Part shown: positions 20,567 through 21,599 of the stretch, piece after piece
How positions within the stretch are numbered: position 1 is the first letter of the stretch
How the letters are laid out: each line of letters opens with the position of its first letter
NCBI RefSeq assembly: GCF_011174675.1
Contig: NZ_JAANIG010000006.1
Coordinates: 1 to 64,000 of the forward strand
Source of the DNA: Perlabentimonas gracilis
GTDB taxonomy: Bacteria > Bacteroidota > Bacteroidia > Bacteroidales > Tenuifilaceae
Length of the DNA: 64,000 nucleotides
Direction: 5' to 3'
Notes under the pieces: model-generated
Seen by the model: only the letters and a program-made list of their open reading frames with translations
Database searches by the model: none
What the model was told of the DNA's origin: nothing
Program-made: the position numbers and the translations under genes

Positions 20567-20599
20567 AGATAATTGTTTTGTTGTAATTGTATGATAGTC

Positions 20600-20627
20600 C
20601 GAGTGCGACTTTAAGACGCGCCCGGAC
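20600..20627 (+). repeat. 28-bp direct repeat, copy B
   Basis: Differs from copy A (19735-19762) at a single position (T to A in the central T-run). Same orientation, 837 bp apart. Confidence 0.9.
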
Positions 20628-20654
20628 TGAAAGTTTTAATACCTAATTTGATAG

Positions 20655-20667
20655 TCACCCCGTGAGT
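20655..20667 (+). repeat. TCACCCCGTGAGT motif, copy 1
   Basis: The 13-bp sequence TCACCCCGTGAGT recurs exactly at 21542-21554, on the far side of the toxin-antitoxin genes. Its first nine bases also occur inverted at 19719-19727 just after mutL. Confidence 0.85.
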
Positions 20668-20684
20668 GGTAATATGTGGTAACT

Positions 20685-20820
20685 GTTACAAAACGTTGGA
20701 ATGACCGACAGGAAGCGTCGGACAGCTTGCCTCGTCCTTTATAGACGAGGATTTCAGGTTTTGTACTGAACACCCTAACATTCCAGCGTCCGGCTGCTTT
20801 TTGCCGGTCTTGGAATCGTT
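20685..20820 (+). other. structured multi-hairpin element
   Basis: A 136-nt, relatively GC-rich stretch folds by eye into an outer helix (GTTACAAAAC 20685-20694 with GTTTTGTAC 20758-20766, one bulge) enclosing CCGAC/GTCGG (705-709/717-721) and a 7-bp CCTCGTC/GACGAGG hairpin (20730-20736/20744-20750). A second arm follows: AACATTCCA (20777-20785) pairs with TGGAATcGTT (20811-20820) around an inner CCGGC/GCCGG helix. Left and right halves are also related as imperfect inverted repeats. It could be an RNA or a DNA recombination or transposition signal. I do not recognise it. Confidence 0.6.
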
Positions 20821-20938
20821 AATGCGTATGGTTGTAACTACCAGGGTTGCCAGTAAAAGCAAAAGGTTAACTGCCTATATCACGCATAATTTGCCAAACC
20901 TTTTTGAGAAGTCCTACACAATTCACTATTTGCATAAG

Positions 20939-20969
20939 TTGAATTGGCAGTAAAAATTATGTAACTTTG
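20939..20969 (+). promoter_or_regulatory. promoter of the toxin-antitoxin operon
   Basis: TTG (20939-20941), 20-bp spacer, TAACTTTG (20962-20969); the antitoxin ATG follows after 17 bp. Confidence 0.7.
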
Positions 20970-20986: not shown

Positions 20987-21205
20987 ATGGCCTATACAAT
21001 TAAAATATCCGATACCAGCCCACAGGCAATGAGCATAATTAATATGCTAAAAGCATTGGCTAAGGATTACGATTTTCTCCATATTACAGAGGATTCCACC
21101 AGCATAACTAAGGAGCAGGATAGGGAGTTAGACAGAAGGTACAGCTACGTTACAAAGAACCCAACGGATGGTAAAAGTTGGGAGGAGTTCGAGAAAATGC
21201 TGTAA
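20987..21205 (+). CDS. DUF2683-like antitoxin
   Basis: A 72-residue acidic protein (MAYTIKISDTSPQAMSIINMLK...) resembling the small DUF2683 proteins that precede ParE/RelE toxins in Bacteroidota. The N-terminal beta strand plus helix is a likely dimerisation part, and the acidic C-terminus ending SWEEFEKML would wrap the toxin. It starts 17 bp after a good promoter and is followed after 14 bp by the toxin, the usual antitoxin-first order. It probably also represses its own promoter, as is usual for the type, but I see no clear operator palindrome. Confidence 0.75.
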   Translation: MAYTIKISDTSPQAMSIINMLKALAKDYDFLHITEDSTSITKEQDRELDRRYSYVTKNPTDGKSWEEFEKML

Positions 21206-21219
21206 GTAAATTGGTGTGT

Positions 21220-21525
21220 ATGGCTGGCCACAATTTGATTATTAACCCCTTTGCTGAACAGGATATTCTAGATGCTCGGGACTGGTATAACGATCAAAAG
21301 AAAAATCTTGGCTCAGAATTAGTGCAAGAAATTAAGCATACCATACATAGCATTGAGGTAAATCCATTCCAGTTCCCCGAAGTTAAATGTAATATTAGAA
21401 GAGCCATTGTTAATGGGTTCCCCTACTCAGTTTTCTATACTATCAACAAGTCGGTGATTATTGTTTTTGCACTATTTCACCATAGCCGAAATCCACGAAT
21501 ATGGAGAAAGCGAGAACCTCAATAA
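21220..21525 (+). CDS. ParE/RelE-superfamily toxin
   Basis: A 101-residue type II toxin-like protein. I start at the ATG at 21220 (MAGHNLIINPFAEQDILDA); a longer reading from 21178 would overlap the antitoxin and adds nothing typical. The family pattern is visible: an N-terminal Ala/Asp-rich helix (AEQDILDARDWYNDQ), a second helix (LGSELVQEIKHTIHSIEVNP), then strands with IRRAIVNGFPYSVFYTI and IIVFALFHHSRNPRIW. The last motif is typical of ParE-like toxins (gyrase poisons) and YoeB/RelE relatives. The target cannot be decided by eye. It is paired with the preceding antitoxin. Confidence 0.85.
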   Translation: MAGHNLIINPFAEQDILDARDWYNDQKKNLGSELVQEIKHTIHSIEVNPFQFPEVKCNIRRAIVNGFPYSVFYTINKSVIIVFALFHHSRNPRIWRKREPQ

Positions 21526-21541
21526 TTTGCTTAGCAGATAT

Positions 21542-21554
21542 TCACCCCGTGAGT
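21542..21554 (+). repeat. TCACCCCGTGAGT motif, copy 2
   Basis: Exact 13-bp copy of 20655-20667, located 17 bp after the toxin stop codon. Confidence 0.85.
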
Positions 21555-21599
21555 ATAAATAATCAGCTCGGCATTAAATTTTGTTTTGCCATTTAAAAC

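Follow-up and report, generated by a model that had tools for sequence, protein, structure and literature searches.

REP/BIME (REPIN) systems with their RAYT (TnpA-REP) transposases, as known from E. coli and Pseudomonas, have two parts: short, intergenic, imperfect hairpins that contain unpaired bases, are dispersed and form inverted doublets, and a gene for a Y1 (HUH) transposase that has repeats of its own on its flanks. Classical REPs carry a GT[AG]G guide 0 to 2 nt from the 5' foot of the hairpin. Quentin et al. (2018, PMC6006769) place E. coli TnpA-REP residues W94 and Q95 in the GTAG-recognising region; in their scheme, TnpA-Y1 subclass 2.6, from Bacteroidetes, has NH[LIV]H and YIH[QN]NP motifs and atypical structures without GT[AG]G, and TnpA-REP subclass 2.4 has NH[IFV]H and YIxNNP motifs and GT[AG]G repeats, with repeats lying in frame inside the transposase gene. 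The CGTC-tagged REPs are short palindromes from several phyla, including Bacteroidetes, that often form inverted dimers (Di Nocera et al. 2013, PMC3733652).

The element at 20685-20820 of the window (the whole 64,000-nt stretch of DNA that was analysed) is very probably an inverted REP doublet in the BIME/REPIN arrangement, of a family tied to one RAYT clade in Bacteroidales, and this reading is carried by dispersal, inverted pairing, a shape with two unpaired Gs, covariation of whole helices and association with RAYT genes. The element consists of two copies of one hairpin unit, at 20686-20766 on the plus strand and 20771-20826 on the minus strand, 4 bp apart, so that it really spans 20686-20826 and is slightly longer than 20685-20820. 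We defined the unit by comparing the window copy with the one own-genome relative recognisable by DNA similarity, L002 on contig C37 (genome G000, 4.37 Mb), where two units likewise stand in opposite orientation. It reads AAC-G-N7-G...C-G-N7'-GTT, with a single unpaired G in each arm and an inner hairpin in the middle. As in the E. coli and Pseudomonas systems, the hairpins are short, imperfect, intergenic and dispersed, contain unpaired bases and form inverted doublets, but unlike those REPs they have no GT[AG]G at the foot, have two fixed single-G bulges, one per arm, and have the helix sequence itself swapped between genomes; no GT[AG]G was seen, reading by eye, in the 6-nt flanks of 37 distinct copies. 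Some units share with the CGTC REPs a CGTC/GACG at the inner stem, although this tetranucleotide varies within the family, where CGTG is found too, and in contrast to those REPs, which were reported without a transposase (PMC3733652), a transposase is associated with this family.

The first-pass annotation had described four helices packed into these 136 nt, and all four are present: the left half forms an outer stem with two hairpins and the right half a bulged hairpin (20777-20820). The outer stem of unit 1 pairs 20687-20694 with 20758-20765 (inverted repeat I3, 8 nt, 100%) and, in the fold of the left half, continues past the bulged G at 20695 as 20696-20702/20751-20757; folding also places within it the inner hairpin CCGAC-aggaagc-GTCGG (20705-20721) and an extra hairpin, CCTCGTC-ctttata-GACGAGG (20730-20750), which is missing from L002. 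Unit 1 (plus strand, AAC-G-TTGGAAT-...-ATTTCAG-GTT) is degenerate, with its second helix arm drifted (ATTTCAG versus ATTCCAA) and the extra hairpin nested in its loop; its counterpart in L002 is perfect (AACG-TTGGAAT-G...CG-ATTCCAA-GTT). It scores 11 bits (E 1.5, weak alone) with our covariance model R1, and unit 2 (minus strand, TTAAC-G-ATTCCAA-G..hairpin..C-G-CTGGAAT-GTTA) reaches 43.1 bits (E 1e-9 for the window), its own sequence being among the 29 that make up the model; unit 2 also fits the unit pattern, which has 0 control matches in 148 genomes. That the halves are imperfect inverted repeats was borne out (11-nt arms, 91%), and the claim of a relatively GC-rich sequence holds in direction, the excess being slight (49% GC versus 45% for the window). 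The predicted structure is significant against 200 dinucleotide shuffles (-50.6 kcal/mol versus a mean of -34.1, z -5.15, 0/200 as good), in agreement with that annotation; on the minus strand the four-helix arrangement is the minimum-energy structure, and on the plus strand the two halves pair with one another in the best joint fold, the halves folded apart (-28.6 and -21.5) coming within about 1.2 kcal/mol of it. Across the whole window, 7 of 1,879 tiles of equal length are at least as stable, which places the element in the top 0.4%; energy alone therefore does not make it unique there, and homologues are needed to decide.

Dispersed copies with compensatory changes, the kind of homologue that the first-pass annotation had proposed to look for, were found. 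Of 148 relatives, 9 contain the pattern AACGNTTCCANG..CGNTGGAANGTT, for which the reversed control gave 0 matches; it was also found in nine stretches of GTDB contigs, whose titles all name Bacteroidales, Bacteroidetes or Bacteroidota. In a 296-genome sample of the phylum it matched the own genome and gave one further hit resembling chance, so the N7 type of the window appears largely restricted to the order. Covariance-model searching, on which the own-genome copy counts rest, placed R1 at 22 positions in the own genome, in 14 of 27 family genomes, with up to 42 places in one of them, and in none of the other four genus members. Most own-genome copies read GACG-CTGACAG-G..CG-CTGTCAG-GTC, with the same architecture, a different N7 and unrelated surroundings. 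In the R1 match list, neighbouring copies are inverted in 28 of 30 pairs, 23 of these being (+,-) as in the window, and genome G060 holds a tandem array of units in alternating orientation (L054, L058, L061). Simpler searches were less informative: whole-element DNA similarity in 99 relatives gave short partial hits only, among them L030, which does not belong to the hairpin family, and in the own genome a simple pattern of 15 bases, allowing 2 mismatches, did no better than its reversed control (19 matches versus 32). A literature search for CCTGTCAGGT found nothing.

Covariation among the copies is strong and extends to exchange of the N7 helix as a whole. Of the two base pairs that the pattern leaves free, and which are free of any bias from selection for complementarity, pair 1 is complementary in 37 of 37 distinct matches (TA 25, CG 10, AT 2) and pair 2 in 35 of 37, both exceptions (A-C) being the two copies of the own genome. 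In the 29-sequence set that includes units from RAYT loci, 92.2% of cells are paired versus 73.6 when shuffled, 12 of 17 pairs have two-sided changes, and the covariation score is 0.43 versus 0.118 for shuffles and at most 0.145 for slid structures, figures in which the scores are inflated by relatedness and the RAYT-locus units had been picked for complementarity. RNA helices usually evolve through G-U intermediates. Cells altered on both sides number 86 here versus 5 altered on one side (all G-U), and on this account selection or copying of a DNA hairpin would fit the sequences better than the slow evolution of an RNA.

These counts also weigh against the idea, raised in the first-pass annotation, of an RNA acting on the neighbouring genes, be it a leader, a small RNA or an mRNA stabiliser. 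On one side of the element is a leftward gene and on the other a rightward toxin-antitoxin pair (20987-21525, plus strand) that is separate from it, made up of an Unstab_antitox-like antitoxin (20987-21205; Pfam PF09720, E 1.3e-4, just under the cut-off) and a ParE toxin (about 21214-21525; Pfam PF05016, E 2.1e-8). Their likely promoter, read directly at 20939-20969 on the plus strand, has TTG at 20939 and, after 20 nt, TAACTTTG at 20962, an arrangement that we take to be the Bacteroidetes-type promoter consensus; it sits downstream of the element, which is therefore not expected in the toxin-antitoxin mRNA, and this argues against an mRNA leader. The transcribed strand does fold well, at the z score given above, and REPs can secondarily act as RNA hairpins (PMC3733652), but Rfam gave no match to the element at the gathering score or at E values up to 1, G-U intermediates are nearly lacking, and the homologues adjoin unrelated genes, so that closeness to the toxin-antitoxin genes appears incidental. 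We consider a structured RNA that acts on these genes quite improbable; an REP doublet would instead explain structures of a kind that might pass for regulatory RNAs.

The surroundings of the doublet contain further REP remnants. Outside the doublet, at 20598-20631, a second REP family is represented by the degraded copy CCGAGTGCGACTTTAAGACGCGCCCGGACTG, as read against GTCCGGGCGCGACTTGAAGTCGCGCCCGGAC in L006, where the intact form adjoins a RAYT gene. A second fragment on that side, at 20652-20670, has a like fragment at 21541-21558, and these two similar sequences (AGTCACCCCGTGAGTGG and TTCACCCCGTGAGTATA) flank the doublet together with the toxin-antitoxin genes. The orthologous interval of G001, another member of the genus, separates mutL from rpsP by about 300 bp (L128) and contains neither toxin-antitoxin genes nor doublet, which points to a variable region and not to insertion of the doublet alone; a complete palindrome of the kind seen at 20652-20670 and 21541-21558 lies in that interval.

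In several genomes the hairpins are associated with RAYT genes. At L032, L034, L037 and L040/L096 they directly adjoin a gene for a protein with motifs of the NHFH and YIH-NP type, the RAYT proteins of these loci being 168-224 aa long from the first ATG; hairpin and gene end are 17, 26 and 17 bp apart at L032, L034 and L037, respectively, and at L096 hairpins stand on either side of the gene. Hairpins lie at most 13 bp from the RAYT gene at L099, L102 and L104 and inside it at L104, L105 and L118, the distances overall being 3-165 bp or within the gene. The proteins scanned match NCBIfam REP_Tyr_transpos at 39-58 bits, under its cut-off of 80, and a profile of the RAYT proteins matches the solved TnpA-REP 4er8 (E 0.0011). 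Searching with four RAYT proteins returned relatives in 60 of 148 genomes. Several of these relatives have hairpins built in the same way but with a different N7 (CTGCAAG, CTCAATT, CTGTCAG, TTGACGG), some of them within the gene, and others, including L111 of the own genome, have similar palindromes without bulges. When all 16 base combinations were tried at the bulges, G/G gave 13 hairpins at 6 of 30 RAYT-clade loci versus 1 of 31 other-Y1 loci, and the bulged type is clustered on the RAYT tree (5 changes versus a shuffled mean of 8.0, 7 of 500 shuffles as low), with moderate support.

NHFH is present in all A1 RAYT proteins and YIHNNP in 2 of 4. By the subclass descriptions of Quentin et al., the family resembles subclass 2.6 in YIHNNP/YIHQNP and in atypical repeats without GT[AG]G, although NHFH misfits NH[LIV]H, and it resembles subclass 2.4 in that NHFH is allowed and repeats lie inside the gene (L104, L105, L111, L118), although the family repeats lack GT[AG]G. 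Unlike E. coli TnpA-REP, the family RAYT appears to have F and E as the counterparts of W94 and Q95, by position count from the catalytic tyrosine, which agrees with the lack of a GT[AG]G guide. At L040:2343-2515, tandem half-hairpins (AAAAAAACGCTTCCAGGTCTTGCAGAC) follow the RAYT gene, with one complete hairpin at the end, and this array may record the way in which units arise or break down.

As in the known REP/BIME systems, RAYT genes in other genomes (L032, L034, L037, L096) have family repeats on their flanks; for the N7 type of the window, no such gene was found in the own genome. No RAYT gene with an ATTCCAA-type helix was found beside either TTCCA-type copy of the own genome, and the ORF list of 17-25 kb contains no transposase-like ORF around the element. 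The closest own RAYT, at L111, is flanked by bulge-free CTGACAG palindromes, and the canonical Y1_Tnp genes L003-L005 of the own genome were rejected as cognate transposases, since they carry other repeats; on the flanks of each stands a different palindrome family (tgtcccgtagggaca, gctgcgctgcagc and caccccgtggggtg, respectively). Since the own genome yielded no RAYT of this N7 type, the window copy is probably an orphan, and with unit 1 degenerate and an extra inner hairpin present it is probably an inactive footprint.

The first-pass annotation had also suggested a single-stranded DNA end of the REP or IS200/605 type. This suggestion is supported by the compensatory homologues, inverted doublets and Y1/RAYT adjacency; a complete IS200/605 insertion sequence, with TnpA between subterminal hairpins, was not found within the 17-25 kb ORF list. 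By analogy with the E. coli and IS200/605 enzymes, the cognate RAYT would recognise each hairpin when the DNA becomes single-stranded at replication, cleavage and rejoining of the strand would take place close to the foot of the hairpin, and the doublet would be copied or inserted at another place; the paired N7 helix would be the address by which RAYT and repeats are matched.

It is likewise quite improbable that the units are the ends of a non-autonomous insertion element (MITE) mobilised by an unrelated transposase, or that they form a site of the tyrosine-recombinase or integron attC-like kind. Inverted pairs can be read as terminal repeats, but the associated genes that were found are Y1 transposases, and plasmid and phage collections contained no match to the element. 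In attC sites, R boxes (RYYYAAC/GTTRRRY) accompany unpaired central spacers. The AAC...GTT ends do recall R boxes, but the consensus fails at the outer base (GTTAGGG and CATTAAC), and the unpaired positions are single Gs and not spacers, on which grounds we rejected an attC or tyrosine-recombinase site. A chance palindrome-rich stretch, for which the seven equally stable tiles of the window might speak, is refuted by the covariation and by dispersed pattern matches in many genomes, with none in the control, and can be given practically no credence.

The doublet thus read as an REP element represents a guide-less REP type in Bacteroidales linked to a specific RAYT clade. With the 7-bp helix free and the two unpaired Gs fixed, the family offers a compact test system for repeat recognition by single-strand transposases, and its natural helix-RAYT pairs permit a direct test of the helix as specificity determinant. 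We speculate further, on a proposal that we think unlikely, that these repeats may form an REP class of their own in which no guide tetranucleotide is fixed. Its RAYTs would recognise the 7-bp helix, which is exchangeable and lies between the two unpaired Gs, so that helix and enzyme would co-evolve as lock and key, and relatives of the enzyme may repeatedly have been taken into CRISPR-Cas adaptation loci beside cas1.

The association of cas1 with RAYT genes is separate from the window element. None of 27 other Y1 loci tested (L069-L095) adjoins cas1. A RAYT gene directly adjoins cas1 in 10 of 30 Cas1 loci of relatives (L181-L187, L190, L193, L208), several of which have Cas9 on the opposite side. 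RAYT genes lie beside cas4/cas1 in three further loci (L111, L106, L109), and in two genera (L111, L106) the gene stands between cas4 and cas1. At L111, REP palindromes separate the RAYT and cas genes; the own RAYT gene (L111:1324-2028) has in-frame AACCTGACAGGTTTTCAAAACCTGTCAGGTT-type palindromes that belong to its own family, and the cas genes around it are likewise separated by copies of this type.
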